Positions 40,925 to 61,477 of a stretch of DNA of 64,000 nucleotides are shown one piece after another. Source of the stretch: a bacterium (GTDB taxonomy: Bacteria; 4484-113; JAGGVC01). Where the stretch lies: positions 1-64,000 of the forward strand of contig JABRWB010000001.1 in the NCBI GenBank assembly GCA_039961635.1, written 5' to 3'. A program made the translations under genes and the position numbers. Position 1 is the first letter of the stretch. Each line of letters starts with the position of its first letter. The notes under the pieces were generated by a model. The model did not search any database, was not told the origin of the DNA, and saw only the letters and a program-made list of their open reading frames with translations.

Positions 40925-43900
40925 TTGAGCCTCGATCGTAGAAGATTCATCAAGTACTCCGGCTTGGGAGGGCTGCTTTGCGCGTTCGGATTCGATCTCG
41001 CAAAGACAAAGGCCTACGCCCAGGTCACGCCGGCCAAGTCCGGAAAGATGTCTACCACGATTTGCCCGTACTGCGGCGTGGGCTGCGGGGCGATCGTTTC
41101 GGAATCGGGCGGAAAGGTCATAAGCATCGAAGGCGATCCCGACCACCCGATCAATCTCGGAGCGCTTTGCAGCAAGGGAAGCGCGCTGTTCCAGGTGGCG
41201 AACAGCGACAGGCGGCTTAGCAAAGTAAAGTACCGCGCGCCCGGCGCGTCCAGCTGGGAGGAGAAGGACTGGGACTGGGCGATTGCAAAAATCGCCGAGA
41301 ACATCAAAACAACCCGGGACGCCACATTCATCGCAACGGACGCGAAGGGCCAGGTGGTCAACCGAACCGAAGGTATCGCGTGCCTCGGCGGTGCAGCCCT
41401 GGACAACGAGGAATGCTACGCCTACAGCAAGTTCGCACGTTCGCTTGGTGTCGTGTACCTGGAACACCAGGCGCGCATATGACACTCCCCCACGGTGGCC
41501 AGTTTGGCCGCCACATTCGGAAGGGGAGCGATGACCCAGCACTGGATCGACATCGGCAACTCCGACTGCGTAATGGTAATCGGCTCAAACGCTGCGGCAA
41601 ACCATCCGATTTCGTTCAAGTGGATCAACCGCGCCAAAGAAAAGGGCGCGAAGTTGATCTGCGTAGATCCGAGATACACGCGCACCGCATTCCAGGCGGA
41701 CATCTACGCGCCGATGCGCTCCGGAACCGACATCGCGTTCATCGGCTCGATCATCAACTACGCGCTTGAGAATGACCTCATCCATCGCGAGTACGTGGTC
41801 CTCCACACGAACGCGAGCTTCCTGGTCAATCCCGAATTCGAATTCAAGGACGGGCTGTTCGGAGAGATCAAGGACGGCAAGTACACGAAGGAAAAGTGGG
41901 GGTTCCAGAAGGACGACGCAGGCATAATTAAAAAGGATCCTACGTTGCAGGATCCGAACTGCGTTTACCAACTCCTCAAACGGCACTTCGCGCGATACAC
42001 ATTCGACGCGGTATCCGCCGTTACCGGAACTCCGGCCGAAAAACTCAAAGAAGTGGCGGAAGCCTTCTGCGCCACCCACCTGCCAGACAAGGCCGGGACA
42101 ATCCTTTACGCGATGGGCACGACGCAAAGCACGCACGGCGCGCAAAACATCCGCTCGTACTCGATCCTTCAAATTCTGCTCGGAAACATGGGCGTCGCAG
42201 GCGGCGGCATCAACGCGCTTCGCGGGGAGTCGAACGTCCAAGGCTCGACCGACCATGGCTTGCTTTCCACCAACCTGACCGGCTATTTGAAGTGCCCCGC
42301 GGCTGACAACACGGACTTGGCCGCGTACCTCGAAAAGTGGACGCCCAAAACAAAGGATCCGAAAAGCGCGAACTGGTGGAGCAACTATCCCAAGTACATA
42401 ATCAGCCTGCTCAAGTCGTATTACGGCGAAAAGGCGGTTCCCGAAAACGACTACTGCTACCAGTACCTTCCAAAATCGGGAGGCGACTGCACCCACATAG
42501 CGCTGTTCGAGGCGATGGCCGAAGGCAAAATCAAAGGACTGATAACGCTTGGGCAGAATCCCGCGGTCGGCGGCCCGAACGCGCGCGTTGAGCGCGTTGC
42601 GCTCGACAAGCTGGATTGGCTGGTTGCCGTGGACCTTTGGGAAACAGAGACGGCATGCTTCTGGGATCGCAAATCGAAGGGACAGCCCAACAGCCCGGAT
42701 CCTTCCGAAGTTCAAACGGAAGTATTTCTGCTTCCGGCAGCATCTTCGGTCGAGAAGGAAGGCAGCATAACCAACTCGGGAAGATGGGCGCAGTGGCGGT
42801 ACGCCGCGGTTGACGCTCCCGGAGATGCAAAAAGCGATCTTTGGATTCTCAACCGCATAGTGCTGGAGCTTAAAAAGCTTTACGCAAAGGAAGGAGTTTT
42901 CCCGGAGCCGATCCGGAATCTAAACTGGAATTTCGGCGACGGCGAAGAGCCGGATCCTCATGCCGTCGCAAAGGAGATAAACGGTTACTTCCTGAAGGAT
43001 TGTGATTTTCCCGACAAGAAGAAAAGCTTCAAGAAGGGCGACCTGGTTCCGGGATTCGCTTTTCTGAAAGACGACGGTTCCACTGCCTGCGGCAACTGGA
43101 TTTACTGCGGAAGCTACACGAACGACGGAAACCAGATGGCTAGGCGGGAAGCTTCAAAACCGGAGGACGACCCCATCGGCCTAAATCCCAACTGGTCCTG
43201 GTGCTGGCCGGTCAACCGTCGGATCATCTACAATCGCGCCAGCTGCAACGCGAAAGGCGAGCCGTACGATCCGAAGCGCAAGGTGGTTTGGTTCGACTGG
43301 GCGGAGAACAAGTGGAAGGGCGACGTGCCCGACGGTCCATGGCCGCCTCTCGCGAAACAGGACGGCACTCCCAATCCCGAAGGCAAGTACTCTTTCATAA
43401 TGGCCGCGGAAGGACATGCGTGCCTGTTCGCCGACCTTGCTGACGGGCCGCTTCCGGAGCATTACGAGCCCATCGAAAGCCCGGTGGAAAATATCTTCTC
43501 ACCGCAGCAGAACAATCCCATCGTCAAGATATGGCGCCGGGAAGAAGTGGGCACTCCCGAAAACTACCCGATAGTCGCGACCACGTTCCGCAGCACCGAG
43601 CACTGGCAGGCGGGCGCTATGACGCGCAATCTGCCCTGGCTTGCGGAGCTCGTACCGGAGCCTTTCGTTATGATAAGCGAGGAGCTTGCAAGCGAAAAAG
43701 GCATCGCACACGGGGACGTGGTGACAATCAAATCCGCCAGGGCACCGGAAGGCATTACCATCCGGGCGCTCGTCACGAAGCGGCTAAGGCCGTTCAAGCT
43801 TAAGGAAAAGACCGTCCACCAAGTAGGCCTGATTTGGCACTTCGGATACACGGGCTATACCTGCGGCGCGAGCGCCAACGAGCTTACGCCCCATGTGGGC

Positions 43901-43975
43901 GACCCGAACTCGCAGATACCGGAATACAAGGCTTTCCTGTGCAGCATCGAGAAGGGGGGACAGCTATGCTGGTAG
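40925..43975 (+). CDS. fdnG: Selenocysteine-containing formate dehydrogenase, catalytic subunit
   Basis: 1016 residues read through one TGA. The two halves (40925-41479 and 41483-43975) are the same frame; the TGA at 41480-41482 lies in EHQARI-U-HSPTVASLAATFGRG, the exact context of selenocysteine in FdnG/FdhA, and a SECIS hairpin starts 11 nt later. A Tat signal (DRRRFIKYSG) directs export to the periplasm. The [4Fe-4S] Cys are in CPYCGVGC and ALCSKGSALF; the Mo/W-bis-MGD domains follow (WIDIGNSDCVMVIGSNAAAN; LLGNMGVAGGGINALRGESN; the C-terminal binding domain HFGYTGYTCGASANELTPHV). It oxidises formate to CO2. The TTG start has GGGGGTGAT upstream. It needs SelA/B/C/D, which are not in this window. 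WtpABC downstream allows tungsten as an alternative to molybdenum. Confidence 0.96.
41480..41528 (+). promoter_or_regulatory. SECIS element directing selenocysteine at TGA
   Basis: After the TGA (41480-41482) come 11 nt and then an upper stem GGTGGCC (41494-41500) / GGCCGCC (41506-41512), one G-T pair, with the loop AGTTT containing the G-T expected for SelB contact. A basal stem CTCCCC (41485-41490) / GGGGAG (41523-41528) closes it. The 11-nt spacing equals that of E. coli fdhF. Confidence 0.9.
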
Positions 43976-44027
43976 CGATTTCGCCCTTATCTGCGCCGCA
44001 ATCGCGCCGAGCGAAAGGAGGTGCGCG

Positions 44028-44906
44028 ATGAGTCGAGCATGTTTGGTTGACCTGACCGTTTGCATGGGCTGCCGCGGATGCCAGGTTGCATGCAAGCAAT
44101 GGAACGACCTCCCTGCGGAAAAAACGAAATTCTTCGCCGGAACCGGCGGATATCAGAATCCGCCGCGCCTTTCGGCAAACACCTACACCCTGGTTGGATA
44201 CACGGAGATATCCAAGGGCTCCGACCTCAAATGGGTGTTCGCGAAGCGCCAGTGTATGCACTGCCTGGAGCCGGCGTGCGTATCGGCCTGCCCCGTTGGC
44301 GCGCTTAAAAAAATGCCCGAAGGCCCGGTCGTTTACGAGCCGGAAAAGTGCATGGGCTGCCGATACTGCATGATGGCCTGTCCTTTCGGAGTTCCGACGT
44401 ACGAATGGTCGAAGGCCGTCCCGTACATTAAGAAGTGCAAGTTCTGCGCGAATCGAATCGGCGGCGAATGGTTCGACGAAAACCTCAACGGCCGGGCGAT
44501 GTCCGAAGAGGAAATCCTTCGGTACAAGCTTTGCCTCGGCCAACCAATCTGCATAAAAACATGCAGCAGCGGCGCTCTGAAATTCGGAGATCGAGACGAG
44601 TTGATCGCGGAAGCCAGAAGCAGGATTGCCGCCAATCCATCAAAGTACATCAACCACATTTACGGCGAGCGTGAGGCCGGCGGCACGAGCTGGATGTACA
44701 TTTCCGGCGTTCCGTTCGGAGATCTCGGATTTCCAGAAAACGTCGGCGAGCGCCCGTATCCGTCCTACACGGAGACCGCCCTCGAATCGGTTCCCGTGCT
44801 GGTCGCCGGCGGCGGCGCGGTGCTGGCCGGGATTTACTGGGTAGTTCAGAGGCGCATAGCCGCCAAGCATAGAAACGGGGACGCCAGAAAGGGGGAATCG
44901 GCATGA
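44028..44906 (+). CDS. fdnH: Formate dehydrogenase iron-sulfur subunit
   Basis: 292 residues from the ATG at 44028 (AAAGGAGGT upstream). Four [4Fe-4S] cluster motifs carry electrons from the Mo/W site: CMGCRGCQVAC, CMHCLEPACVSACP, CMGCRYCMMACPFG, and CKFC with CIKTC. A single C-terminal transmembrane helix (VPVLVAGGGAVLAGIYWVV) anchors it with a short cytoplasmic tail, as in FdnH. It follows the catalytic subunit and overlaps the membrane subunit by 4 bp (ATGA). Confidence 0.95.
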   Translation: MSRACLVDLTVCMGCRGCQVACKQWNDLPAEKTKFFAGTGGYQNPPRLSANTYTLVGYTEISKGSDLKWVFAKRQCMHCLEPACVSACPVGALKKMPEGPVVYEPEKCMGCRYCMMACPFGVPTYEWSKAVPYIKKCKFCANRIGGEWFDENLNGRAMSEEEILRYKLCLGQPICIKTCSSGALKFGDRDELIAEARSRIAANPSKYINHIYGEREAGGTSWMYISGVPFGDLGFPENVGERPYPSYTETALESVPVLVAGGGAVLAGIYWVVQRRIAAKHRNGDARKGESA

Positions 44907-46201
44907 ACGCGGAAAAGTACGAATCCGTAAACCGCGGCTACATTACGAAGGGAACCATGCTCTTGATGGTTCTCATGGGGCTTGGACTTTTGTCCGCCGT
45001 TTACCGTTTCGCCGCGGGTCTGGGTGCCGCGACGAATCTTACGGACGATCATCCTTGGGGAATCTGGATCGCTTTCGACGTCCTCTGCGGAGTCGCGCTG
45101 GCGGCCGGCGGTTTTACGACAGCGGCTGTGGCATATCTTTTCGGCGGCGAAAAATACCATGCCCTCGTGCGGCCCGCGGTGTTGACCGCGCTGTTGGGCT
45201 ACGTGTTCGTCGCGATCGCGCTTTTGGCGGACCTGGGGCTTCCGTGGAACATCTGGCACCCGATCATATACTGGCCGGAGCACTCCGCGATGTTCGAGGT
45301 GGCGTGGTGCGTAATGCTATATCTGTCCGTGCTGGTGCTTGAGTTCGCTCCGCCCGTATTCGAAAAATTCGGATGGAAGGCTGCGCACTCGCTTTGGGCC
45401 AAGCTGGTTCCGGTATACACGGTGCTGGCTTTGTCCTTTTTCACCTACATAATGTCGCACAGCGTGATTTGGACTGCGATCGCACTCGTTGTATTGACGG
45501 CGATCGCTATCGCGCTGCCCGCGGCGGCGACGTCAAGACCGGGAACACCCGTGATTTTGATAATAGCGGGCGTTCTTTTCTCCACCGCGCACCAGTCATC
45601 GCTTGGCACGTTGTTCCTTCTTATGCAGGACAGGCTTTCCAAGCTTTGGTGGTCGCCCATGCTTCCGGTGAATTTCTTCCTCACGGCCGTAGCAGTCGGC
45701 TTCGCGATGGTCATTTTCGAGGGAACGCTCGCCGCGAAGGCATTCGGAAGGCCGGTGGAAAAGGAGCCTCTTGCGGGACTGGGCAGAATGTGCGCCTGGG
45801 TACTATGGATTTACCTGGTCGTCCGGATTATCGACGCAACAATGCAGGGCGGAGTCGCGGCCGACTTGCTTTCCGCAAAAGGGCTCCTGTTCTTCCTCGA
45901 GCTGCTTGCCGGAGTGCTTATTCCGGCAATAATGCTTTCGAGCGAAGTTACGCGCAAAAGCACCTGGCTGTTGTTCACTGCAGCCTCGCTCGTTATTTTC
46001 GGCGTGATTTTCAACCGGTTCAACGTGGTACTGGGCGGAATGGGCCTTCCCGCGGGAGCGGTCCGAGGAGGCTATTTCCCCAGCCTCATGGAGATACTGA
46101 TCACGGCCGGAATCATCGCCGCGGTGATTTTCTTTTACAACATCGCGGTCAAGACTTTCCCCGTGTTCGAGCGGATCGAGCCGGAAGGAAAGAAGCAGTA
46201 G
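44903..46201 (+). CDS. NrfD/HybB-type membrane subunit of formate dehydrogenase
   Basis: 432 residues with about ten transmembrane helices. NrfD/PsrC/HybB family: PWGIWIAFDVLCGVALAAGG near the N-terminus, FSTAHQSSLGTLFLLMQDRL with the HQSSLG motif typical of HybB, and LWWSPMLPVNFFLTAV. Such subunits reduce quinone without haem, replacing the cytochrome FdnI. Formate electrons would therefore enter the quinone pool. The exact quinone side and proton translocation are unknown. Confidence 0.9.
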   Translation: MNAEKYESVNRGYITKGTMLLMVLMGLGLLSAVYRFAAGLGAATNLTDDHPWGIWIAFDVLCGVALAAGGFTTAAVAYLFGGEKYHALVRPAVLTALLGYVFVAIALLADLGLPWNIWHPIIYWPEHSAMFEVAWCVMLYLSVLVLEFAPPVFEKFGWKAAHSLWAKLVPVYTVLALSFFTYIMSHSVIWTAIALVVLTAIAIALPAAATSRPGTPVILIIAGVLFSTAHQSSLGTLFLLMQDRLSKLWWSPMLPVNFFLTAVAVGFAMVIFEGTLAAKAFGRPVEKEPLAGLGRMCAWVLWIYLVVRIIDATMQGGVAADLLSAKGLLFFLELLAGVLIPAIMLSSEVTRKSTWLLFTAASLVIFGVIFNRFNVVLGGMGLPAGAVRGGYFPSLMEILITAGIIAAVIFFYNIAVKTFPVFERIEPEGKKQ

Positions 46202-46220
46202 CATCGGAGCGCGATAAAGC

Positions 46221-47075
46221 ATGTCTGACGAGGATGCAGCGCTTGCAGGCAAATATCACGCCGCTCTTGCCGGGCTTGTCGAAAAGCTCGAAGCGCTGGC
46301 GGGACTGGAGTACGTCGCTGACGATTACGTCGCGTTCAGGATCGCGGTCGCGCGAGCGCAGGCCGATGTGCTTGAAAAGCTCCGCGGCCGCGATCCGCCT
46401 TCGATCGATATAGAATTGGTTGCAGAGTACTTCGATGCGATCCGGTCTGCGTCCAACGCCTGCGGAGGGGAGAGTGCGGAATTGCGCAAAATCGCAAAGG
46501 CTGCCGCGCAGGATCGCTCGTTGCTTGAGGATGCTGCCGCGCGCGGAATTATCGGCGCGGAAGATGGATTAATCGCTCGTCTCGCGGAAAAAATCGGAAT
46601 TCCGGAACCCGCTCTCGCATTTGTCGCACATCTTTTGGCCTCCCCGTTTGCGGTCGCAATGGTTCCCAACGGCAAGGCTGCATCCGCGGGAAGATGCCCT
46701 CGTTGCGGTTCCGGCCCCGCGCTGGCAAAGCTGCGTCGGGGGGACGGCAAGCGCGTTCTATATTGCTCGCTATGCGGAGCGGACTGGGAGCATCCGCGGC
46801 TCGTCTGCCCGGATTGCGGCAACGACGATCCAGCTGCGTTGAAAGTGCTTTTCGTATCAAGGGAAAGCCCGCGGTTCGCCGAGAGCTGCGCAAAGTGCGA
46901 GCTCTACATTAAGACGATCGACGAAAGGCGGCTTCCGGAAGGCGAAACCGTTCTGCCGTTCGTCGAGGAAACAGCCACGCTTTATCTTGACCTGCTTGCC
47001 GAAAAGGAAGGACTTAGGCGCAACCAACCTCTCGCCGCGGCTTTTCCCGCGCGGCATGTATCGGGAGGGGAGTGA
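46221..47075 (+). CDS. fdhE: Formate dehydrogenase accessory protein FdhE
   Basis: 284 residues. The C-terminal half has the four CxxC pairs of FdhE rubredoxin-like iron sites: CPRCGSGP, YCSLCGADW, CPDCGNDD and CAKCELYIKTID, plus a helical N-terminal half. FdhE is needed to assemble or activate membrane formate dehydrogenase before Tat export. It lies directly after the structural genes. Its stop is followed at once by the start of the broken mobA. Confidence 0.93.
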   Translation: MSDEDAALAGKYHAALAGLVEKLEALAGLEYVADDYVAFRIAVARAQADVLEKLRGRDPPSIDIELVAEYFDAIRSASNACGGESAELRKIAKAAAQDRSLLEDAAARGIIGAEDGLIARLAEKIGIPEPALAFVAHLLASPFAVAMVPNGKAASAGRCPRCGSGPALAKLRRGDGKRVLYCSLCGADWEHPRLVCPDCGNDDPAALKVLFVSRESPRFAESCAKCELYIKTIDERRLPEGETVLPFVEETATLYLDLLAEKEGLRRNQPLAAAFPARHVSGGE

Positions 47076-47076
47076 C

Positions 47077-47379
47077 ATGACGCGCATCTCCGGCGCCATT
47101 ATTGCAGGAGGACTGGGATTCAGGATGGGCGGCGTCCGCAGACGGGCCGCTTATTTTGTCTTCCGTTATGTTCAGTTGTACATATCGACGCGATGTGCGA
47201 AGTCGAATCGGCGCCTGCGGAAAACCTGCGCTCCGCGATTGACATTTGGACGCGGGCGGGCGCGCGGCATGTTGAATTCAGGGGCATCGCGCGTAGGCGG
47301 AAGAGGATACTCCCGAAGAGTATTCGGTCTATTTCGTGCAATCAAGTTTGAAAGGAGCAATCTTAAATGGCGGGATTAA
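47077..47379 (+). pseudogene. mobA: mobA remnant
   Basis: The first 19 codons (MTRISGAIIAGGLGFRMGG) are the start of a molybdenum cofactor guanylyltransferase with its A-G-G-x-x-x-R-M-G nucleotide loop and are preceded by GGGAGG. After that the frame has no MobA similarity (VRRRAAYFVFRY...) and runs into the next gene. A different frame from about 47173 to 47352 (VHIDAMCEVESAP...TRAGARHVEFRGIARR) has host-like codon use and faintly recalls the end of an ExbD/TolR protein; it has no start. The block therefore looks like a deletion scar joining pieces of two genes. An intact mobA is at 60119-60745. Confidence 0.75.
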
Positions 47380-47657
47380 TTTCGGCATCGGGCGAATTAT
47401 CGGCGAAGATTGCCGCTTTCGCAGCGGCTGAGCAGATTGAGCTGCGCGTCGCGCCTCCAGGCAAAGCGGCGGTCGCGGCGCTGGCCGCGAACGGACGGAA
47501 GGAGTCTACGCTCGATTCGCTGTTCGAAGGCGGGTTCGTCAAGTGCGCCACCGCCCGCGCGCTTGCCGAAAGGATCGGAATCGGCCGCGGCGAGATGGGG
47601 AAACTGTTGAACCATCTCGACATTAAGGTCAGGGATTGCGAGCTGGGGTGTTTCTGA
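47367..47657 (+). CDS. Small HTH-like protein of formate dehydrogenase/Moco loci
   Basis: 96 residues; AAAGGAG lies 9 nt before the ATG. The last 45 residues (FEGGFVKCATARALAERIGI, then G-E-M-G-K-L-L-N-H-L-D-I-K-V-R-D-C-E-L-G-C-F) resemble a short helix-turn-helix segment that I recall from proteins next to formate dehydrogenase and molybdopterin genes, ending in K-I-x-x-C-Q-L-G-C-F. Three conserved-looking Cys (KCATA, DCELGCF) could bind metal or sense redox state. The N-terminal half is not recognised. Its TGA overlaps the ATG of the P-loop/ModE gene (TGATG), so the two are coupled. A regulatory role is inference. Confidence 0.6.
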   Translation: MAGLISASGELSAKIAAFAAAEQIELRVAPPGKAAVAALAANGRKESTLDSLFEGGFVKCATARALAERIGIGRGEMGKLLNHLDIKVRDCELGCF

Positions 47658-48469
47658 TGCTTCTGTGGATGATAAGCGGCGCGCACAGAAAAGTCGGCAA
47701 AACGCATCTCGCCAAGCGGCTTTGCGCGGTATTGCCGGACTCTGCTTACGCGAAGCTGGGGCACGGCGCGCGTGCCGCAGGAAAATCGCGCAATTACTTC
47801 ACCCAGCCGGAGGATTTGCTTAGATTCATTGAGCAATGCACAACCGCGCTTTCGCATGTCGTGGTCGAAACCAACTTGACGCTTTTTCCGGAAGCCGCGT
47901 GCTTGAGGATTTTTGTCGGGGACAACGGCGGGCCGGGGGAGCCTAGGCTGGACGCCTTCGAACTTTTCACTCGAGCGGATATCCGCGTTGTTGCGGGAGG
48001 GGCTGCCGATTCGTGGCGCGCTGTGCTTTCCGCGAAGCTCGACGATGGTCCCATCGTGGACGCTGTGCTGGCCGAGTTGCTTGCCCAGAAACGCTGGCTG
48101 GAACGCACGGCGGTGGCCGTGCACAGCAAAGTATGGCTGGTCAACCGGGAAATGGAGCACGTTTTCGGGCCGGGTCTGGCAGACCTTTTGACTGATATCG
48201 AGCATCTGGGATCGCTCAAGGCGGCAGCGATGCGAAACAATGTTTCGTACAGGCATGCATGGGGAGCGATTCGAAACGCGGAAAAGCACTTCGGAATCGC
48301 GCTCGTGACCGCGAGTTCCGGCGGGCCTGGCGGAGGGCGTTCGTCAATCACCGTTGATGCAAAGCGTGTGCTCGCGAGATTCCGGCTGCTATCGGAGCGC
48401 GTAGCGGATTACGCCGACCGGGAATTCGCGAGTCTCTATCTCGCTGAAGAGAGGGATTCGGATGGCTGA
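47657..48469 (+). CDS. P-loop NTPase fused to a ModE-type DNA-binding domain
   Basis: 270 residues from the ATG at 47657, overlapping the previous stop. Residues 1-165 start with ISGAHRKVGKTHLAKRL, a Walker A motif in the context of MobB-like molybdopterin NTPases (KLGHG, VVVETNL follow). Residues about 170-270 are a ModE-type winged helix: LLTDIEHLGSLKAAAMRNNV, SYRHAWGAIRNAEKHFGIAL, GGPGGGRSSITVDAKRVL. ModE represses molybdate uptake when Mo is plentiful but normally carries C-terminal MOP domains, absent here. The fusion could tie gene control to nucleotide or cofactor state. It overlaps moeA by 8 bp. Confidence 0.75.
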   Translation: MLLWMISGAHRKVGKTHLAKRLCAVLPDSAYAKLGHGARAAGKSRNYFTQPEDLLRFIEQCTTALSHVVVETNLTLFPEAACLRIFVGDNGGPGEPRLDAFELFTRADIRVVAGGAADSWRAVLSAKLDDGPIVDAVLAELLAQKRWLERTAVAVHSKVWLVNREMEHVFGPGLADLLTDIEHLGSLKAAAMRNNVSYRHAWGAIRNAEKHFGIALVTASSGGPGGGRSSITVDAKRVLARFRLLSERVADYADREFASLYLAEERDSDG

Positions 48470-49673
48470 CACTATTGTTCCGCTCGATAAAGCGCTCCGG
48501 ATTATTGATGAGCGAACGCCCGCGAGACCGCGGCAAATCGAACGTCTGAATCTGCCATCGGCGTTCGGAAGAATTCTTGCGTCCGATGCTGTTTCGGCGC
48601 TCGACGTACCTCCGTTTGACAAGTCCGCGGTGGACGGCTACGCGATTCCGGACGACGGAGAACGAGGTGAATACCGCCTTTTGAAAACAATGTATGCCGG
48701 GGAGGAGCCTTCGTATTGCCTCGACGCGGATTGCGCCGCGCTTGTCATGACCGGCGCGCCCGCGCCGCCGGGGACGCGGCGGGTGGTGATGGTCGAGGAC
48801 GCGGCCAGGCTTGACGAAATCGTTCATATTGAACGCATGGAATTCGGCGAATCGCGAAACATTTGCGCAAAGGGCGAGGATGCTCGCGCCGGGGACGTTG
48901 TGGCAAAAGCCGGGCAAAGGCTCGACGCGGCGGTTATCGCGCACCTGACCGGATGCGGAATAACCGAGGCGGAAGTGTTTAAGCCGTTACGCGCGGCAAT
49001 CGTTTCGACCGGAGATGAAATCGCGGATGATCCGGCAAGCCTGCGCCCCGGGAGGATAATGAATACGAACGGTTCAATGCTCGCGGCGCTGTGCCGGGAA
49101 AACGGCATCGCCGTTGCACTTGACGAGAGCGTTCGGGATGACGAACGCGACACGCGGGAAGCGATCGGGCGCGGGATGGAATGCGCGGACATCATTCTTA
49201 TTTCCGGCGGGGTATCCGCGGGCGAACGCGATTTTGTACCCGCGGCGATGGAAAGTCTGGGGCTGCAAAGACACTTCAGAAGGGTAGCCGTGAAGCCGGG
49301 CAAGCCTACGACGTTTGCGGCATGTGAAGGAAAAGCCATTTTCGGCCTGCCGGGAAACCCCGTCGCTGTTTATCTGATGTTCCAACTCATGGCGTTGCGC
49401 GCAGCCGCGCGGATGCTCGGAATCCCTCACCGCGAATCGCGGATGCGCGTCCCTGCCGCCGCGCGGATCGCGGGCGCGTCCGCGTCGCGAGCCGCGTTCC
49501 TTCCGGCCTGCATTGATGACACCGGCGCGGTCGCGCCGCTGCCTTATCACGGCTCCGCCCACATAGGCGCGGTCGCGAAGGCCGACGGTTTCGTGTTCAT
49601 TCCGTCCGGCTCACGACCGATTGAGGCGGGCGACCTCGCGGATTTTTATATTTTCCGCGGGAGGGGGATGTAA
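48462..49673 (+). CDS. moeA: Molybdopterin molybdenumtransferase MoeA
   Basis: 403 residues, full length. MoeA inserts Mo (or W) into adenylylated molybdopterin. Motifs: VPPFDKSAVDGYAI, the metal-site ALVMTGAPAPPG, GESRNICAKGEDARAGD, STGDEIADDP, MNTNGSMLAALCRENGI, ISGGVSAGERDFV and FGLPGNPVAVYLMFQLM. A second MoeA is encoded at 56975-58228, so the two may serve different metals or enzymes. Confidence 0.93.
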   Translation: MADTIVPLDKALRIIDERTPARPRQIERLNLPSAFGRILASDAVSALDVPPFDKSAVDGYAIPDDGERGEYRLLKTMYAGEEPSYCLDADCAALVMTGAPAPPGTRRVVMVEDAARLDEIVHIERMEFGESRNICAKGEDARAGDVVAKAGQRLDAAVIAHLTGCGITEAEVFKPLRAAIVSTGDEIADDPASLRPGRIMNTNGSMLAALCRENGIAVALDESVRDDERDTREAIGRGMECADIILISGGVSAGERDFVPAAMESLGLQRHFRRVAVKPGKPTTFAACEGKAIFGLPGNPVAVYLMFQLMALRAAARMLGIPHRESRMRVPAAARIAGASASRAAFLPACIDDTGAVAPLPYHGSAHIGAVAKADGFVFIPSGSRPIEAGDLADFYIFRGRGM

Positions 49674-50473
49674 TGCTCGATAGCTTCGGCCGCGAAATTT
49701 ACTACTTGAGGATTTCGGTCACCGACCGCTGCAACCTGCGCTGCCGGTATTGCATGCCGGAGGAGGGCGTTCCTCTCATGCCGCGTAAAGCGATGCTTTC
49801 GCTCGAAGAAATCGCGGAATTCGCGCGCTCCGCCGCGGACTTGGGATTCCACAAAGTTCGACTGACGGGGGGTGAACCGCTTGTAAGGTCAGGAATCGCA
49901 GCGCTTGTCTCGATGCTCGCAGGCATTACCGGAATTCGCGATCTATCTATGACGACGAATGGCGTTCTGCTTGCGCGATACGCGCGCGATCTCGCGCGCG
50001 CAGGATTGATGCGCGTGAACGTGAGCCTGGACGCTGTCGACCCGGAGCGCTTTTCGCACTTGACGCGCGGAGGCGACGTCCGTGCGGTTTTGGAAGGAAT
50101 CGACGCGGCGCTAGATGCGGGTCTTTCGCCTGTGAAAATCAACTGCGTCGTTCAAAGCTCGCCTTACGAGGAGGACGCGCGCGCGGTCGCGAGATACGCG
50201 TACGACCGCGGTCTGGAAGTTCGCTTCATCAAAAGGATGAACCTTGAAGCGGGTGAATTTTCGAAGGTCGAAGGCGGCTCCGGAGGCGACTGCAGAACTT
50301 GCAGCAGGCTGCGCCTCGGGCCGGACGGCACGGTGCGCTCCTGCCTTTTTTCGGACGTCACGTTCGATGCAAAATCACTGGGCGCGCGCGAGGCGATTAT
50401 GCGCGCGATCGAGGGCAAGCCGGAATCGGGGCGCAGGTGCGTCACCGCGTCGATGAGCATGATCGGAGGCTAA
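49673..50473 (+). CDS. moaA: Short-form GTP 3',8-cyclase MoaA
   Basis: 266 residues, about 70 fewer than usual. The radical-SAM motif CNLRCRYC lies in SVTDRCNLRCRYCMPEEGVP; KVRLTGGEPLVRSG and MTTNGVLL follow. The C-terminal cluster is GDCRTCSRLRLGPDG with SCLF, and the protein ends in G-G, needed for activity. What is missing is the segment between RFIKRMNLEAGEF and the second cluster. I recall similar compact MoaA proteins in other anaerobes, so this is probably a natural variant and not a deletion. Its ATG overlaps the moeA stop (TAATG). It makes the first Moco intermediate with MoaC. Confidence 0.87.
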   Translation: MLDSFGREIYYLRISVTDRCNLRCRYCMPEEGVPLMPRKAMLSLEEIAEFARSAADLGFHKVRLTGGEPLVRSGIAALVSMLAGITGIRDLSMTTNGVLLARYARDLARAGLMRVNVSLDAVDPERFSHLTRGGDVRAVLEGIDAALDAGLSPVKINCVVQSSPYEEDARAVARYAYDRGLEVRFIKRMNLEAGEFSKVEGGSGGDCRTCSRLRLGPDGTVRSCLFSDVTFDAKSLGAREAIMRAIEGKPESGRRCVTASMSMIGG

Positions 50474-50474
50474 G

Positions 50475-50930
50475 ATGACAAAACTTTCGCACGTGGACGA
50501 AGGCGGCAAGGCGGCGATGGTGGACGTAAGCGGCAAGGAACCCCAGTTGAGGATCGCGCGCGCCACGGGGAAAATAAGCCTTGCGTCCTCGACGCTTCCT
50601 CTCATCGCGGAAAACGCAATCAAGAAGGGCGACGTGCTGTGTGTCGCGGAAATCGCGGGAATTCAGGCCGCAAAGCGCGCGTCTGAATTGATCCCGCTCT
50701 GCCATCCGCTTCGGCTGACCGATGTCAAGGTGAAGGCGTCGCCCGAATCTGACGGAGTGGTGGTGGAAACCGAAGTGCGATGCGTGGATCGGACGGGCGC
50801 GGAGATGGAAGCTCTGACCGCCGCAGCCGTCGCGCTTTTGACCGTCTACGACATGTGCAAGGCCGCGGACAAGAACATGCGCATCGGCGAAATCTCGCTC
50901 GTGGAGAAGTCAAAGCATGACATCGCGTGA
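50475..50930 (+). CDS. moaC: Cyclic pyranopterin monophosphate synthase MoaC
   Basis: 151 residues, single domain. Motifs: LSHVDEGGKAAMVDVSGKEP, AGIQAAKRASELIPLCHPL with active-site His, and RTGAEMEALTAAAVALLTVY followed by D-M-C-K-A. It acts after MoaA to give cPMP. GGAGGC lies just upstream at the end of moaA, and the gene overlaps the next by 14 bp. A second MoaC domain is in the fusion protein at 58197-59144. Confidence 0.95.
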   Translation: MTKLSHVDEGGKAAMVDVSGKEPQLRIARATGKISLASSTLPLIAENAIKKGDVLCVAEIAGIQAAKRASELIPLCHPLRLTDVKVKASPESDGVVVETEVRCVDRTGAEMEALTAAAVALLTVYDMCKAADKNMRIGEISLVEKSKHDIA

Positions 50931-51864
50931 ATTTGAAATACTGTCGGTCAATCTCTCGACCGAGAAGGGCACAAGCAAGCATCCGGCAGGGGAAATCGAA
51001 ATCGGCGCGGCCGGAGTGGTTGGCGACGCGCACGCGGGCGCGGGCGCGCGGCAGGTCAGCCTGCTCGCGATCGAAAGCATCGAGCGCTTCGGGCGGGAAG
51101 AGGGGCGCGAGTTCTCGCCCGGCGAGTTCGCGGAAAACCTGACTACGCGCGGGTTTTTGTTCGGAGACGTCCGCGTGCTGGACGAGATTTCAATCGGCGA
51201 CGTGCTTCTGGAAGTGACGCAAATCGGAAAGCCCTGCCATGGCGGCGGGGGCGCGATTTTCCGCGATGTAGGAAAGTGTGTGATGCCCAATGATGGTGTG
51301 TTCGCGCGCGTTGTGCGGACAGGCCGCGTCAGCGCGGGAGACCGCGGCGTTCACCTGCCGCGGCGATTGCGCATTTCCGTGATCACGGTAAGCGACCGCG
51401 CATCGCGCGGCGAGTACGTTGACAAAAGCGGCCCTGCCGTATGCGAGTTGCTTAAGAAGCATTTCGAGGTGGCTGGGTGGCGATGCGATATTGCAGCCGG
51501 GGTCGTACCCGACGACGCAAAGGATATCCGCGCGGCCCTGAACGAGGCGATTTCCATTGGTGCGGACGTCGTATTCGCGGTGGGCGGAACCGGGATAGGC
51601 CCGCGAGATGTAACACCAGAGGTTGTTGCTGAATTCATAGATAAGCCCATGACCGGCGTGGTTGATGCGATGCGGGCGAAGTTCGGCGCGGGCAATCCGA
51701 ACGCGCTGCTAAGCCGCGCCGTCGCGGGAGCGTCGGGCACGCGCCTGTTTTACGCGATTCCCGGAAGCCCCCGCGCCGCGACGGAGTACGCGTCTGAAAT
51801 TCTCTGCACGCTCGAACATGCGATTTTCATGGTGCGCGGCGTGGATACACACGCCGAGTGTTGA
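50917..51864 (+). CDS. MOSC - MogA/MoaB fusion protein
   Basis: 315 residues. Residues 1-145 are a MOSC domain (KHPAGEIEIGAAGVVGDAHA, GEFAENLTTRGFLF, LEVTQIGKPCHGGGGAIF with the conserved Cys), a family of sulfur-handling domains found with Moco. Residues about 150-315 are a MogA/MoaB molybdopterin adenylyltransferase (RISVITVSDRASRGEYVD, VFAVGGTGIGPRDVTPEVV, GASGTRLFYAIPGSPRA). MogA activates molybdopterin with ATP before metal insertion by MoeA. The fusion may couple sulfuration and adenylylation; that link is inference. Confidence 0.9.
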   Translation: MTSREFEILSVNLSTEKGTSKHPAGEIEIGAAGVVGDAHAGAGARQVSLLAIESIERFGREEGREFSPGEFAENLTTRGFLFGDVRVLDEISIGDVLLEVTQIGKPCHGGGGAIFRDVGKCVMPNDGVFARVVRTGRVSAGDRGVHLPRRLRISVITVSDRASRGEYVDKSGPAVCELLKKHFEVAGWRCDIAAGVVPDDAKDIRAALNEAISIGADVVFAVGGTGIGPRDVTPEVVAEFIDKPMTGVVDAMRAKFGAGNPNALLSRAVAGASGTRLFYAIPGSPRAATEYASEILCTLEHAIFMVRGVDTHAEC

Positions 51865-51883
51865 TGTAAAAGGATGTGCATTT

Positions 51884-52906
51884 ATGGTAAACCGGAATTT
51901 AAGTATTGTGTTGGCGTTTCTTTTCCAGGCGGCGATGGCGCTTGCAACGTCTTGCCCCGCGCCAGAAAAGGAATCCCCCCCGCCCAAGCAACCGCAAGCG
52001 GCGATGCCAGCTGACGAGCTTTCCGGGAGATTAACGATTTTTCATGCGGGAAGCCTCTCGGTGCCGCTCGCCGAAGTTTCGAAGGCGTTCGAAGCGAAGC
52101 ATCCAAAGGTTAAGGTGCTCGCCGAAGCAGCGGGAAGCCGCGACACCGCGCGCAAAGTCAGCGATCTGGGACAGACCTGCGACATAGTCGCCTGCGCGGA
52201 TTACGAGGTCATAGACGAGCTGCTCATTCCCGATCACGCATCGTTCAACATAAGATTCGCTCGAAACAGGATAATTATCGCCTATACCGACAAATCGCTT
52301 CGCGCGCAGGAGTTGACGACCACCAACTGGCACGAGCTGCTACTTTTGGACGAAGTAAAATTCGGCCGCGCCGACCCGGACCGCGATCCATGCGGATATC
52401 GCACGCTCATGGTTTTCCAGCTCGCGGAAAAGCTATACGCGAAACCGGGGCTCGCCGACGCGCTCACGAAAAAGGACGGGGATAAATACATAAGGCCCAA
52501 GGAGACCGACCTGCTTGCGCTCTTGGAATCCGGCGAGATCGACTACCTTTTCATTTACTACTCGGTGGCCGTCCAGCATAATCTTAAATACCTCGATCTC
52601 CCCGGCGAGGTGAACCTGGGAGATGTGGATCGCTCGCAGGAATACAAATCCGCTTCCGTCGAGGTCGTCGGAAAATCCCCGGGCGAATTCACGACTCTTT
52701 ACGGCGCGCCGATTGTTTATGCCGTGACGATTCCCAAAAACTCTTCAAATCCAAGGGCTGCCGCAGCTTATCTCGAATTCCTGCTGTCGCCAGAAGGGGG
52801 GGCGATCATCGAAAAATGCGGGCAGCCGCCGATTTCGCCCGCAGTGTGCGCGCAGTACGAGGCGCTGCCTGAATCCCTGAAGCCGCTTTGCATCGCGGCC
52901 GAATGA
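51884..52906 (+). CDS. wtpA: Tungstate/molybdate ABC transporter binding protein (WtpA/ModA type)
   Basis: 340 residues from the ATG at 51884 (AAAGGATG upstream; an earlier start at 51818 lies inside the previous gene). A signal sequence ends in LATSC, probably a lipoprotein anchor. The mature part, LTIFHAGSLSVPLAEVSKAF, DIVACADYEVIDELLIPDHA, FARNRIIIAYTDKS and LESGEIDYLFIYYSVAVQH, matches the WtpA-like class of oxyanion-binding proteins of archaea and anaerobes more than E. coli ModA. Some of these bind tungstate with very high affinity. The permease and ATPase follow after fdhD. Confidence 0.88.
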   Translation: MVNRNLSIVLAFLFQAAMALATSCPAPEKESPPPKQPQAAMPADELSGRLTIFHAGSLSVPLAEVSKAFEAKHPKVKVLAEAAGSRDTARKVSDLGQTCDIVACADYEVIDELLIPDHASFNIRFARNRIIIAYTDKSLRAQELTTTNWHELLLLDEVKFGRADPDRDPCGYRTLMVFQLAEKLYAKPGLADALTKKDGDKYIRPKETDLLALLESGEIDYLFIYYSVAVQHNLKYLDLPGEVNLGDVDRSQEYKSASVEVVGKSPGEFTTLYGAPIVYAVTIPKNSSNPRAAAAYLEFLLSPEGGAIIEKCGQPPISPAVCAQYEALPESLKPLCIAAE

Positions 52907-53715
52907 ACATGACCAAAGAAAGCGAAAATCCGACTATTTCATTGCCTGCCCTCAGATTCGGCGACTCGGCGCAGCCCATCGCCATCGACGAGCGGGTGAT
53001 AGTGGAAAGGCTTTTCCGCATCATGCTCAACGGAGAGGAGTACGCGGCGGCAAGCATCCTTCCGGGCATGGAAAGGGAATTCGTTTACGGATTTCTTTAT
53101 ACTTCCGGAGCGATTTCCCGAGCAGAAGATGTGACCGATTTGCAGATTGCAGGGGATGGGGCTGCCGCGTTTGTCAGTACCGACGGGAAGACATTCGACG
53201 AATACCTTTACAAAGCCAGACTGCCTTTAACTCCGGGAACCGCTTGCGGAGCCGAGCCGCAGGCGATTTCCACAGCGGGATTGCCGGCGCTCGTATCCGA
53301 TTTACGCGTACGGCCCAGCGACATACTCGATGCGCTGAAAACAGTGAGGGCGGAATCCGCCTTGTTTCGGGAAACGGGGGGGGTGCACAGCGTCGCACTG
53401 TTCGATTCAGACGGGCGGCTTGTCGCGCGTGCGGACGACGTAGGCAGGCACAACGCATTCGACAAGATCGCGGGAGCATGCCTGCTTTGCAAGCTAAATC
53501 CTTCGGCGCTGTTCGCGGTGACGACGGGGAGATTGTCTTCCGAAATAGTCGGAAAATGCTGGCGGCTTGGAGTTCCCCTGCTCGTCTCTCCGTCGTGCGC
53601 GACGTCCCGCGCCATTGAAATCGCGGCACTTGCGAATATTGCACTTTGCGGATTCGCGCGCGGCCGCAGGCTGGCCGTTTACAGCGCCGATTGGCGGATA
53701 GGAGGGCGAGAATGA
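52903..53715 (+). CDS. fdhD: Sulfur carrier protein FdhD
   Basis: 270 residues from the ATG at 52903, overlapping the wtpA stop (ATGA). FdhD carries sulfur from IscS to the bis-MGD cofactor of formate dehydrogenase. Seen: RLFRIMLNGEEYAAASILPG, REFVYGFLYTSGAIS, FRETGGVHSVALFDSDGR, ARADDVGRHNAFDKIAG, SSEIVGKCWRLGVPLLVSPS. The Cys loop reads T-A-C-G-A-E-P, with only the first Cys of the C-G-x-C-G motif of E. coli FdhD (whose first Cys is the essential one). It overlaps wtpB by 4 bp. Its position in a transporter operon underlines that the operon serves formate dehydrogenase. Confidence 0.92.
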   Translation: MNMTKESENPTISLPALRFGDSAQPIAIDERVIVERLFRIMLNGEEYAAASILPGMEREFVYGFLYTSGAISRAEDVTDLQIAGDGAAAFVSTDGKTFDEYLYKARLPLTPGTACGAEPQAISTAGLPALVSDLRVRPSDILDALKTVRAESALFRETGGVHSVALFDSDGRLVARADDVGRHNAFDKIAGACLLCKLNPSALFAVTTGRLSSEIVGKCWRLGVPLLVSPSCATSRAIEIAALANIALCGFARGRRLAVYSADWRIGGRE

Positions 53716-54512
53716 CAATCGGCTTGCGCAAAATATCGGGATTTGAACTTGCGGTCGAATTCGCGGGCGCGCTGCTTATCTTATTCATCGCAGCGCCGCT
53801 TGTCCGGCTTGTATTGGGAATATCCGCGGGCGGGATTGCCGATATTTTCCGCGACCGCGAGCTTTGGACTTCCATCGCTCTGACATTCAGGTGTGCGGCC
53901 GCGGCCGCAATTCTCGGCATTCTGTTCGGAGTTCCTCTTGCATACGTGCTCGCGCGTTCGCGCTTCCGATGCTCCTCGCTTATACAGGGCATCGTTGATT
54001 TGCCCGTCATGGTTCCGCATTCCGCTGCGGGAATCGCGCTTCTTGGAGTGCTGGGGAGGCATTCGCTGGCGCAAAAGGCCGCCGCGCCGCTGGGTATCGA
54101 ATTCGCCGGAACCGAGGCGGGAATCGCGCTCGCGATGACATTCGTCTCCGTCCCGTTTCTGGTGAACGCGGCGCGAGCCGGATTCGAGGCCGTTCCGGTG
54201 CGGCTTGAGAACGCGGCCCGCTCGCTCGGCGCGGCGCCTGCGCGAGTTTTCTTCTCGATTTCCCTTCCCCTCGCGTGGCGCTCGATTCTGGGCGGCGCGG
54301 CTTTGATGTGGGGGCGCGGAATAAGCGAATTCGGCGCGGTGATAATAATCGCTTACCATCCTGCCACCGCACCGGTGCTGGTGTTCCAGCGCTTCAGCGA
54401 CTTCGGGCTGAACGCGTCGCGCAGCGCGGCAGCAGTGCTCGTTGTCGCGGCGCTGGCCGTGTTCGCGATTCTACGCGCAATCGGCCGAGCCAATGGAGGC
54501 GAGCCGCGATGA
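53712..54512 (+). CDS. wtpB: Tungstate/molybdate ABC transporter permease
   Basis: 266 residues from the ATG at 53712 (ATGA overlap with fdhD). Six transmembrane helices of the ModB/CysT/WtpB family. The cytoplasmic coupling loop ENAARSLGAAPARVFFSISL with its E-A-A-x-x-x-G motif contacts the ATPase. VDLPVMVPHSAAGIALLGVL and ISEFGAVIIIAYHPATAPVL are typical of the family. Confidence 0.92.
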   Translation: MTIGLRKISGFELAVEFAGALLILFIAAPLVRLVLGISAGGIADIFRDRELWTSIALTFRCAAAAAILGILFGVPLAYVLARSRFRCSSLIQGIVDLPVMVPHSAAGIALLGVLGRHSLAQKAAAPLGIEFAGTEAGIALAMTFVSVPFLVNAARAGFEAVPVRLENAARSLGAAPARVFFSISLPLAWRSILGGAALMWGRGISEFGAVIIIAYHPATAPVLVFQRFSDFGLNASRSAAAVLVVAALAVFAILRAIGRANGGEPR

Positions 54513-55549
54513 CGCTGGAGTTGCGGAATGTAACGAAGCGGCTCGGCGGGTTCGAGCTGCGGGATTTCTCGCTGACTGTCGGGGAGGGGGAGTACTTCGT
54601 GCTTCTCGGCCCGTCCGGCGTGGGTAAATCGGTGTTGCTGGAAACGATTGCGGGACTGCTGCCTCCCGACTCGGGACGGATTCTTTGGAAAGGCACTGAC
54701 GTAACCGGACTTCCGCCGAATTCGCGCGGATTTGCCGTCGTCTATCAGGATTACGCGCTTTTTCCGCACATGTGCGTTCGGGCGAACATCGAGTTCGGGC
54801 CGAGGGCGAATGGTCTGCGAAGGCATGAAATCGCCGAGCGCGCAAGGCACGCTGCGGAACTGGCGGGAATTGCGCCGCTTCTCGAACGGATGCCCGGAAC
54901 ACTTTCGGGAGGTGAAGCCCAGCGCGTCGCGCTGGCGCGCGCTGTCGCGGTATCGCCGGAATTGCTGCTTTTGGACGAGCCGCTTTCGGCGGTGGACATG
55001 CGCCTTCGGCGCGAGCTGCGCAGGGAACTAAAAAAAATCCACCTGACCACCGGCAGGACGTTCCTGCATGTCACGCACGACGTGGACGAGGCGATGGAGC
55101 TTGGAGACAGAATCGGCGTATTGCTGGACGGCAAATTGCGCGCGGTTGACGCGCCTGCGGATGCGTTCCGGTCGCCGAAGGATCCAACCGTTGCGGAATT
55201 TCTCGGCATGCGCAATGTGATAGCGGTAGAAAGCCTCGATGAGGAATATTGCCTCGCGGCGGGACTGCGAATTCATATCGGCAAGCGGAATGTATCATTC
55301 AGCCATATCTGGATCAGGCCGGAAGAAATAATCCTGTCGAGAGTGCCCTTTGAATCGAGCGCTCGCAATCAAATCGCGTGCAGGGTTGCGGAATGGTCTC
55401 CTACGGGAACACTGGTGGCCGTGCAGCTTCGGGCCGGCAGGCTGGAATTGCGCGCGCTGATAACCTATGGGGCATTTGATGAATTGGCAATCGAAGCCGG
55501 AAACAACCTATATGCCACATTCAAAAGCTCATCGGTGGTATGTTTTTAG
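54509..55549 (+). CDS. wtpC: Tungstate/molybdate ABC transporter ATPase
   Basis: 346 residues from the ATG at 54509 (ATGA overlap). Walker A GPSGVGKS, Q-loop VVYQDYALFPH, signature LSGGEAQRVALARA, Walker B LLLLDEPLSAVD and H-loop LHVTHDVDEA. Past residue about 235 is a C-terminal TOBE/MOP-like beta domain (HIWIRPEEIILSRVPFESSA; GTLVAVQLRAGRLELRALIT), which may bind the oxyanion and inhibit transport. It is the last gene of the long operon. Confidence 0.94.
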   Translation: MTLELRNVTKRLGGFELRDFSLTVGEGEYFVLLGPSGVGKSVLLETIAGLLPPDSGRILWKGTDVTGLPPNSRGFAVVYQDYALFPHMCVRANIEFGPRANGLRRHEIAERARHAAELAGIAPLLERMPGTLSGGEAQRVALARAVAVSPELLLLDEPLSAVDMRLRRELRRELKKIHLTTGRTFLHVTHDVDEAMELGDRIGVLLDGKLRAVDAPADAFRSPKDPTVAEFLGMRNVIAVESLDEEYCLAAGLRIHIGKRNVSFSHIWIRPEEIILSRVPFESSARNQIACRVAEWSPTGTLVAVQLRAGRLELRALITYGAFDELAIEAGNNLYATFKSSSVVCF

Positions 55550-55729: not shown

Positions 55730-56524
55730 TCAAGGAAGCAGAAGCTTAACCGCCGATGCGAGCATTACCGCGGCAAGCAACAGCCGCAAGGTTTTCACAC
55801 CCGCCACTTTTGCGCCGAATCTTGCTCCCAAAATCGCTCCCAGCATTGCAAACGGAAGAAGCGGCCAAAATGTGCCGAAATCAAGCCTGGAAGCGAATAC
55901 GCGCCCCAACAAACCCGCCATTGAATTGACGACGATGAAAACGGAGGATATGGCCGCCGCCTGATTTACCCGCGCCCAGCATGTGAGAACAAGCAGGGGA
56001 CTAAGAAAAATTCCTCCGCCTATGCCGATTATGCCCGAAATCAAGCCGACAACTCCCGCGGACGCCGTTAAAACCGGCCAACGCACCGGTTTCAATATGT
56101 CTTCCCCACCGAAATAATGGAGAAAGGCGATTCGAAAGGCGGCGAAAGCAAGCGCCGCCCCCAAAAGCAGCTCCAAATGGCCGGTTTGAACATCGAGCCA
56201 TCCTCCGATTAATGCGAAGGGGAACGATGCCGCCAGAACGGGCAATAGTAGCGATGCTTTCAAGTTCCCGGATTTGATGTAAGTGAGGGCAGCCACGCCC
56301 GCCACCAATATATTCAAAACGAGCGAGGCTGTTGCGGCCTGGTTGACCGGAACGGACAACAACGCCATTACGGCCAAGTACGCCGATGCTCCTCCGTGGC
56401 CGACGGAGGAATACAGCGCGGCCGCAACAAAAACCAGCGCCGCCAGCAAAAATAGGTTGAATCCTGTTAATTCCACTTTGAATCGCTTCTTTATGTCATT
56501 CGGGTCGATGTGACGACTCCGCAC
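55730..56524 (-). CDS. TauE/SafE (TSUP) family membrane transporter
   Basis: 264 residues with about eight transmembrane helices in two homologous halves (VAAALYSSVGHGGASAYLAV; GVVGLISGIIGIGGGIFLSP), the glycine-rich signature of TSUP proteins that move sulfite, sulfoacetate or related anions. The GTG start lies inside the preceding MOSC gene (28-bp overlap), so translation is coupled. It ends the second Moco operon. With MOSC proteins and a thiosulfate/tetrathionate-type ferredoxin subunit nearby, sulfur oxyanion transport is a reasonable but unproven guess. Confidence 0.85.
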   Translation of the reverse strand: MRSRHIDPNDIKKRFKVELTGFNLFLLAALVFVAAALYSSVGHGGASAYLAVMALLSVPVNQAATASLVLNILVAGVAALTYIKSGNLKASLLLPVLAASFPFALIGGWLDVQTGHLELLLGAALAFAAFRIAFLHYFGGEDILKPVRWPVLTASAGVVGLISGIIGIGGGIFLSPLLVLTCWARVNQAAAISSVFIVVNSMAGLLGRVFASRLDFGTFWPLLPFAMLGAILGARFGAKVAGVKTLRLLLAAVMLASAVKLLLP

Positions 56525-56984
56525 TTCTTATGAAAACCGCATCACCCTTGCGCACAATTCCGCCGCTTAGAACGCGGGCGAATATTCCCTCTCGCGGCAT
56601 CACGCAATCGCCCGCCTGTCTGAATATCTCGCATCGCGAATGGCATTCCTTTCCAATTTGCGTCACTTCCAATTCCGCGTCGCCTATCCTCAACCTGTCT
56701 CCTATTTGCAAACCCGGCAGGTCTATGTCCTCGGTCGTTATGTTCTCGGCGAAATCGCCCGGTCCGACTTCCAACCCCATTTTGCGTATCTTATCAATGC
56801 TCTCAACGGCCAAAAAGCTTACTTGCCGGTTCCAGTCTGCCGCATGGGCGTCGCCTTCTATGCCCCAATCCGGCACCAGCAACGCCCAATCCACGTTGCG
56901 TTTTCGCGTTCCCTTCCTCTCGCTAATCGAAACCGCAACCACTTTGCCTTGCCGATTTTCTTTTCGATTCATATTTAGTTCCAT
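56496..56984 (-). CDS. MOSC-domain protein
   Basis: About 162 residues from the ATG at 56984; ATG 56972 is an alternative. A single MOSC domain: LLVPDWGIEGDAHAADWNRQ, VGPGDFAENITTEDIDLPGL, LEVTQIGKECHSRCEIFRQA with the conserved Cys, and CVMPREGIFARVLSGGIVRK. Very similar in layout to the MOSC half of the fusion at 50917. It overlaps the 3' end of moeA2 and the 5' end of the TSUP gene. It is one of three MOSC domains in this window. Confidence 0.9.
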   Translation of the reverse strand: MELNMNRKENRQGKVVAVSISERKGTRKRNVDWALLVPDWGIEGDAHAADWNRQVSFLAVESIDKIRKMGLEVGPGDFAENITTEDIDLPGLQIGDRLRIGDAELEVTQIGKECHSRCEIFRQAGDCVMPREGIFARVLSGGIVRKGDAVFIRSAESSHRPE

Positions 56985-58228: not shown

Positions 58229-59144
58229 ATGTTTCGATATGCCCTTCCCCCCGGCGCGCCGCAAGGTAATGCAGGACGGCGGGGAAAACGGCCTGCATGG
58301 CGTCGGCAGCGGCGTGTACCGATCCGGGCAGATTGATATAAAGCGTATTGCCGCGCAGTCCGGCGACGGCGCGGCTTAGTATCGCGTACGGCGTTCTTTC
58401 CCGGCCGTAGGCGCGTATCGCTTCCGCTATTCCCGGCGCTTCGCGTTCAATAACCGCTTTTGTAGCTTCGGGCGCAACATCGCGATTTCCCAATCCCGTG
58501 CCGCCGCACGTGAACACAAAGTCCAAATCCAGCTCGTCGGCGTATGCCGCAAGCACCGACGCCGCGGCGTCCGCATCATCGGGAATCACCCGAAAATCTT
58601 CGACAAGCAATTCGTGTTGCCGCAAAGTTTTTTTGATTAATTCGCCGGAGCGGTCCCGCTTTTCGCCTGCGGCCACGCGGTCGGAAAAGACAAGCACCGC
58701 CGCACGGGGTTGGGAGGCGAATACATTCTGGAAATCCGATTTCCCGCCCTGCTTTGAAAGCAAACGGATAGATGAAATTTCCAGGCTTTCGTCGAGCATT
58801 TTCAACATGTCGTATAAAGTGAGGGCCGCCACTCCCGCGGCGGTGAGAGCTTCCATTTCCACGCCGGTCTTGTCTATCGCTTTGACGGTGGTCACAACCG
58901 TAATCGAGTTTTCTCCCAAATCGAAATCGACGCCCGCATATTCAACCTGCAACGGGTGGCAAAAAGGAATGATCCGGCTCGTATCTTTGGCGGCCAGTAT
59001 CGCGGCGACGCGCGCAACTTGGAGGGCATCGCCCTTCGGCACTTTATTGTTCCTTACTTTTTCGAGCGTTTCAGGAGACATCCGCACGACGGATTGGGCT
59101 TTCGCAACGCGCAATGTTCGATTTTTGTGTGAAATGTCCAGCAA
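58197..59144 (-). CDS. MoaC - MoaB fusion protein
   Basis: 315 residues from the TTG at 59144; the RBS GGAGG lies 5 nt upstream, inside the last codons of moaA. Residues 1-145 are MoaC (LLDISHKNRTLRVAKAQS, IIPFCHPLQVEYAGVD, KTGVEMEALTAAGVAALTLY). Residues about 155-305 are a MoaB/MogA adenylyltransferase (RAAVLVFSDRVAAGEKRDRS, FVFTCGGTGLGNRDVAPEAT, AGLRGNTLYINLPGSVHAAA). The fusion links cPMP formation and molybdopterin adenylylation, two non-consecutive steps. It overlaps moeA2 by 32 bp. Confidence 0.9.
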   Translation of the reverse strand: MLDISHKNRTLRVAKAQSVVRMSPETLEKVRNNKVPKGDALQVARVAAILAAKDTSRIIPFCHPLQVEYAGVDFDLGENSITVVTTVKAIDKTGVEMEALTAAGVAALTLYDMLKMLDESLEISSIRLLSKQGGKSDFQNVFASQPRAAVLVFSDRVAAGEKRDRSGELIKKTLRQHELLVEDFRVIPDDADAAASVLAAYADELDLDFVFTCGGTGLGNRDVAPEATKAVIEREAPGIAEAIRAYGRERTPYAILSRAVAGLRGNTLYINLPGSVHAAADAMQAVFPAVLHYLAARRGEGHIETYGSGETNSVD

Positions 59145-59145
59145 G

Positions 59146-61218: not shown

Positions 61219-61409
61219 TATTCCGACTCCTTGCACTGCCGAATCGCTTTGAATAATAACAGATGGCATCTGCACGAAATGCACCAGAAGGTTTGCATCC
61301 GCTTGGACGGGATTCGAACGGTGTTTAGGGCATTTGGTATCCGGATAGCGGGAAGAAATCCGGCTTGATAAGTTTGTCACGAGCATAGAAAAATAGAATA
61401 TGGAGCAGC

Positions 61410-61435: not shown

Positions 61436-61477
61436 CCTTTATTCTTGAGCTGGTTGTATCTCTCATCAGGAGAAGAT

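Follow-up and report, generated by a model that had tools for sequence, protein, structure and literature searches.

A MobB-like P-loop domain fused to a ModE winged helix: a candidate autogenous regulator of a tungstate uptake and cofactor operon

The window (the whole 64,000-nucleotide stretch of DNA analysed here) contains an intact open reading frame on the plus strand, with its ATG at 47657, a stop ending at 48469, and zero internal stops, which encodes a single 270-residue protein joining a MobB-like P-loop domain to the DNA-binding domain of ModE. We favor, with modest confidence, the reading that this fusion is an autogenous ModE-type regulator of a tungsten/molybdenum (W/Mo) uptake and cofactor operon, in which a MobB-like input domain replaces the MOP domains and would provide a readout of nucleotide or assembly state. 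The occurrence of a MobB-relative/ModE fusion together with a ModE-type site before its own operon suggests that, in the cell, a cofactor-assembly protein probably takes the place of the molybdate sensor in controlling W/Mo cofactor genes.

The C-terminal part of the protein is recognizable as ModE by several independent methods. The ModE N-terminal winged-helix domain (ModE-N) spans residues 153–256 (48113–48424), within which residues 172–255 match TIGR00637 (ModE_repress; E 1.3e-15) over profile positions 4–87 of 100, at 57 bits against a cut-off of 98.5 bits. A PDB sequence search matched the same region to the ModE chains 2ijl, 1b9m, and 1o7l. Two AlphaFold models were poor in the N-terminal domain (pLDDT about 55) and usable for the winged helix only; a Foldseek search with the AlphaFold model returned E. 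coli ModE as the top match (E 1e-5), and Agrobacterium ModE (2ijl) with a TM score of 0.79 (of target). The winged helix contains a recognition-helix motif, SYRHAW (residues 197–202), and a wing, GGPGGG (222–227); the SYRHAW and GG..GG columns are common to the fusion, to lone ModE-N proteins, and to fused ModE-N domains, and the fusion retains every column that is invariant across the ModE-N alignment. The original prediction of a P-loop domain and a ModE winged helix in one reading frame is borne out by these NCBIfam, PDB, and Foldseek results and by the recurrence described below; the DNA-binding residues, whose loss from the C-terminal part it had considered, are present in both SYRHAW and the GGxGGG wing. 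The predicted absence of a MOP domain was confirmed as well, as a domain search found no TOBE/MOP domain in the protein and none after the winged helix. Within the 2.78-Mb genome (96% complete), this is the only detectable ModE-N, and also the sole one in its class; no free-standing MOP protein was found, and the single TOBE domain detected was that of the operon's own ABC transporter ATPase (55355–55537).

The N-terminal domain (residues 1–150; 47657–48106) contains a P-loop, with the Walker A sequence GAHRKVGKT at 47678–47704, and matched no Pfam family, MobB included. The window protein does not reach the PF03205 (MobB) cut-off, and the best member of the N-domain family has an E-value of 0.16; direct Pfam, NCBIfam, and PDB searches with the domain gave no informative match, and the MobB models were not passed. 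Direct profile–profile comparison with MobB gave a probability of 84%. The alignment of the N-domain family, however, matches an alignment of P-loop proteins from four other genomes (G240, G102, G269, and G280) over most of its length (hhalign 99.2%, E 2e-19); all 4 of these intermediates match PF03205, the first above its cut-off, and as a group they match canonical MobB at 98.8%. The identification with MobB therefore depends on these profile intermediates, and on fusions of the same domain to MobA. As in MobB (PF03205/TIGR00176), the neighboring genes include moeA, mobA, and fdhD, and the conserved lysine and glutamate positions are shared: K33, G35, and E71 are invariant in the N-domain alignment, and Walker A is kept. 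In contrast with MobB, the domain is shortened by some 27 residues in the stretch from K33 to the E71 strand, falls below the Pfam threshold, is joined to a DNA-binding domain, and lacks the GKD[ST]...AGA segment, which is fully or almost fully conserved in canonical MobB and is present in alignments A6 and A7, the latter that of the intermediate group. Because the Walker A, lysine, and glutamate positions are kept while this segment is missing, the domain is, by its sequence, a trimmed and divergent MobB relative and not an ordinary MobB. The "MobB-like" label thus stands in the sense of a relative reached through intermediates; a domain search of the N-terminal region, proposed alongside it, assigned no Pfam family directly.

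The complete fusion was found in four genomes: that of the window, an AUK107 bacterium (L028), a member of the Planctomycetota (L029, identical to L068), and G268 (L064), the latter three homologs showing 29–36% identity. A profile was made from the initial three fusions and used to scan genome contigs, which led to this set; a scan of the contigs with the single protein found no match, whereas the alignment-based scan did recover these relatives. Since the complete form recurs, an origin by frameshift or chance read-through can be rejected. In the genomes other than that of the window, the neighbors are always formate-dehydrogenase, molybdenum-cofactor (Moco), or tungstate-transport genes: ABC ATPase-moeA-moaA-moaC-MOSC-moaB-mobA/fdhD-CxLGCF-fusion in L028, moaB-mobA-fdhD-CxLGCF-fusion in L029, and fdhA-fdhD-fusion, convergent with wtpABC, in G268. 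The same N-domain also occurs without ModE, fused to MobA in two genomes (G085, G273) and alone in three (G038, G185, G320; loci L049, L116, L117), where it is only about 114 residues long and adjoins a CxLGCF gene; in G038, formate-dehydrogenase genes are close by. A different fusion, of ModE-N with a Nudix hydrolase domain and likewise without MOP, was observed in a Methanomassiliicoccales archaeon (L032, 7983–8696).

In the window, all genes from fdhA (40925) to the end of wtpC (55549) lie on the plus strand. The upstream part of this run (40925–47075) encodes a selenocysteine formate dehydrogenase (fdhA), fdhB, an fdhC-like gene, and fdhE; the in-frame TGA of fdhA at 41480–41482 (ARI-TGA-HSPTVASLAATFG) almost certainly encodes selenocysteine. 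Direct reading of the sequence identifies a 5' stub of mobA (MTRISGAIIAGGLGFRMGG; 47078–47140), comprising the first 20 or so codons, the rest being lost. The gene for the 96-residue CxLGCF protein (47367–47657) overlaps the start of the fusion gene, whose end is in turn overlapped by moeA (48462–49673). Domain searches identify the remaining Moco genes of the operon as moaA, moaC, and a MOSC/MoaB fusion (49673–51864); wtpA, fdhD, wtpB, and wtpC, encoding a tungstate transporter and the formate-dehydrogenase sulfurtransferase, follow in the same direction, separated by no more than about 20 bp (51884–55549). MoaA (49673–50473) is only 266 residues long, with roughly 70 residues missing before a C-terminal cysteine motif that is itself kept. 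The minus strand carries a second Moco operon (55730–61494), which encodes MOSC, MobA, MoaA, MoaC/MoaB, MoeA, MOSC, and a TauE/TSUP transporter, and it is here that the intact MobA is located (60119–60817).

A predicted ModE-box operator, CGTTATGT-N8-ACATATCG, forming the palindrome CGTTATGTTCAGTTGTACATATCG, is located at 47164–47187, upstream of the CxLGCF and fusion genes, in the sole large gap of the entire gene run (47076–47366). Against a symmetrised form of the E. coli modA operator, which E. coli modA itself matches with 0 mismatches, no other stretch of the window comes within 3 mismatches (1 mismatch here; 0.27 expected). Local shuffles of the gap reproduced the match in 11 of 3000 cases, and the same spacing and palindrome in none. 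A matrix trained without the window, on seven other sites picked for their resemblance to the E. coli box (that of E. coli modA, plus boxes that precede lone ModE-N genes), scores the site at 24.3, above every training site; the runner-up in the 64 kb scores 10.9, and none of 300 simulated windows reached 24.3. The site is also the only 0-mismatch match to a related pattern across the 2.78 Mb, a count that is supportive only, since the pattern was written after the site had been seen; the box pattern showed no genome-wide enrichment over a reversed control. Taken alone, matching to the E. coli-type consensus, allowing up to 3 mismatches, is not significant (1 found, 1.3 expected in the window), so the case rests on the palindrome, its position, the stricter pattern, and the independent matrix. 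Recognition of this predicted operator by the ModE domain of the fusion is well supported, with actual DNA binding inferred.

In G268, the best matrix site in 17 kb lies directly before wtpA (17.6, with the next at 10.1); 11 of 1000 simulations reach this score, making the result a modest one. No box was seen in L028 or L029, where the contigs stop within the operon; box-like matches there were rejected because they fall inside coding sequence. Several lone MOP-less ModE-N genes are preceded by the same type of box, and several others have no such box upstream. Of the boxes anticipated before both Moco operons of the window, only that at 47164–47187 was found; no comparable ModE box occurs before the second operon or before fdhA, where inverted repeats were rejected for lack of resemblance. 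Near the second operon, a 14-nt inverted repeat (93%) at 61407–61438, at the start of an Rrf2-type regulator reading frame, is a candidate operator of another type. Rfam identified no Moco or other riboswitch in 34000–64000, and scans for consensus promoters gave matches at no more than chance frequency.

In the mechanism that we propose, the winged helix of the fusion would bind the predicted palindrome and thereby control, probably by repression, the genes CxLGCF-(MobB-like/ModE)-moeA-moaA-moaC-MOSC/moaB-wtpA-fdhD-wtpB-wtpC (47367–55549). The trimmed MobB-type P-loop domain would stand in for the usual molybdate-sensing MOP domains; its likeliest ligand is a purine nucleotide, and it may report the progress of cofactor assembly through its nucleotide state or by contacting MoeA, MobA, or the cofactor. 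Sensing of a nucleotide or molybdopterin state by this head would be plausible. We infer the ligand and any partner role of the CxLGCF protein, as well as the sign of regulation, repression being suggested by the E. coli modA precedent and by the G268 site just before wtpA. In Methylorubrum extorquens, MobB and MoeA1 are required for tungsten cofactor assembly of formate dehydrogenase, a W-specific requirement, and are encoded adjacent to tupBCA (PMC13197769); a MobB-type domain in a tungsten formate-dehydrogenase operon would therefore be well placed to read out the state of assembly.

The same domain might instead retain a role in cofactor assembly. BirA combines a cofactor-metabolism enzyme and a repressor in one chain, and is a possible analog of the fusion, though by analogy only, as the sequences are unrelated. 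A bifunctional protein of this type would remain an assembly factor—a MoeA partner for tungsten insertion or for MGD handling—with the ModE part repressing the operon when the factor is idle. Consistent with this are the overlap of the fusion gene with moeA and its grouping with wtpABC, fdhD, and a selenocysteine formate dehydrogenase; the joint requirement for MobB and MoeA1 in Methylorubrum; the fusions of the same N-domain to MobA; and the failure to find a further MobB in the genome. However, the loss of the canonical GKD[ST]...AGA segment from the N-domain, and the reduction of the adjoining mobA to a stub, argue against retained activity, and we consider this account somewhat unlikely.

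Another possibility is that the signal (metal, Fe–S, or cofactor) is carried by the CxLGCF protein to a generic MOP-less ModE, with the MobB part serving only for dimerization or tethering. Across the loci sampled (window 47367–47657; L140–L169), this small domain has three invariant cysteines; it was detected in 39 of the 385 genomes sampled and is covered by no Pfam or NCBIfam family. Its gene recurs as a conserved partner alongside MobB, the fusion, and some of the lone ModE-N reading frames (110–140 residues) found in many of the genomes searched. In G063 and G187, a predicted operator is followed by a CxLGCF gene and a lone MOP-less ModE-N, without a MobB part, and a tree of 20 sequences of the short ModE-N domain, from which the wing filter left out G268, places the fusions of the window, L028, and L029 as sister to the CxLGCF-linked lone ModE-N group (support 0.82). 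The simplest history would be the attachment of a MobB-type domain to a ModE-N already linked with CxLGCF. The CxLGCF domain is nevertheless not specific to ModE, because it is also found beside or fused to MobB, a MoxR-type ATPase, and the C-terminus of methylenetetrahydrofolate reductase (L152) without ModE; additionally, G268 has the fusion without a nearby CxLGCF gene. We regard a CxLGCF sensor with a passive MobB part as unlikely. Finally, a winged helix that has become a vestigial, non-DNA-binding tail on an assembly protein is very improbable: though the ModE-N of the window forms a long branch in the tree and scores below the TIGR00637 cut-off, all invariant columns are kept, and a strong ModE box precedes the operon in a genome where no other ModE-N was found.

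The proposed regulator resembles E. coli-type ModE (ModE_N-MOP-MOP) in its winged helix, recognition-helix motif, and wing, and its system shares the operator sequence, the 8-bp spacing, and the type of target, a Mo/W uptake operon. It differs in having no MOP domains and in that its other domain is N-terminal and of the P-loop type. TunR combines a Mop sensor with a XerC/D-like DNA-binding domain. Both TunR and the fusion are domain swaps within Mo/W regulation, but TunR keeps the MOP sensor and exchanges the DNA-binding part, whereas the fusion keeps the DNA-binding part and exchanges the sensor; chimeric genes have been described (PMC545781). Single-domain ModE proteins, as in Desulfovibrio (PMC545781) and Agrobacterium (2ijl), also lack MOP, and several have the same type of box upstream, but they carry no MobB-like head. 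Single-domain ModE was reported in Desulfovibrio in 2004, and the way in which such proteins sense molybdenum or tungsten was called unclear at that time (PMC545781); our literature search found no explanation of metal sensing by single-domain ModE. The original claim that no regulator of this design had been described must be narrowed accordingly: MOP-less ModE has been known since 2004, and the MobB-type head, for which we found no description on ModE in the open-access literature searched, appears from these comparisons to be the new part.

Two candidate sensors for single-domain ModE emerge from the fusion, its predicted operator, and its conserved neighbors: the P-loop domain of MobB type and the CxLGCF protein. 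A short DNA site and a small protein are thereby available as test material. If the fusion is indeed a regulator, direct feedback would tie tungstate uptake to cofactor assembly. More tentatively, there may be a class of Mo/W regulators that read the state of cofactor assembly (MobB nucleotide or pterin, possibly via CxLGCF) and not the free oxyanion; such a class, if real, would explain sensing by at least some MOP-less ModE proteins.
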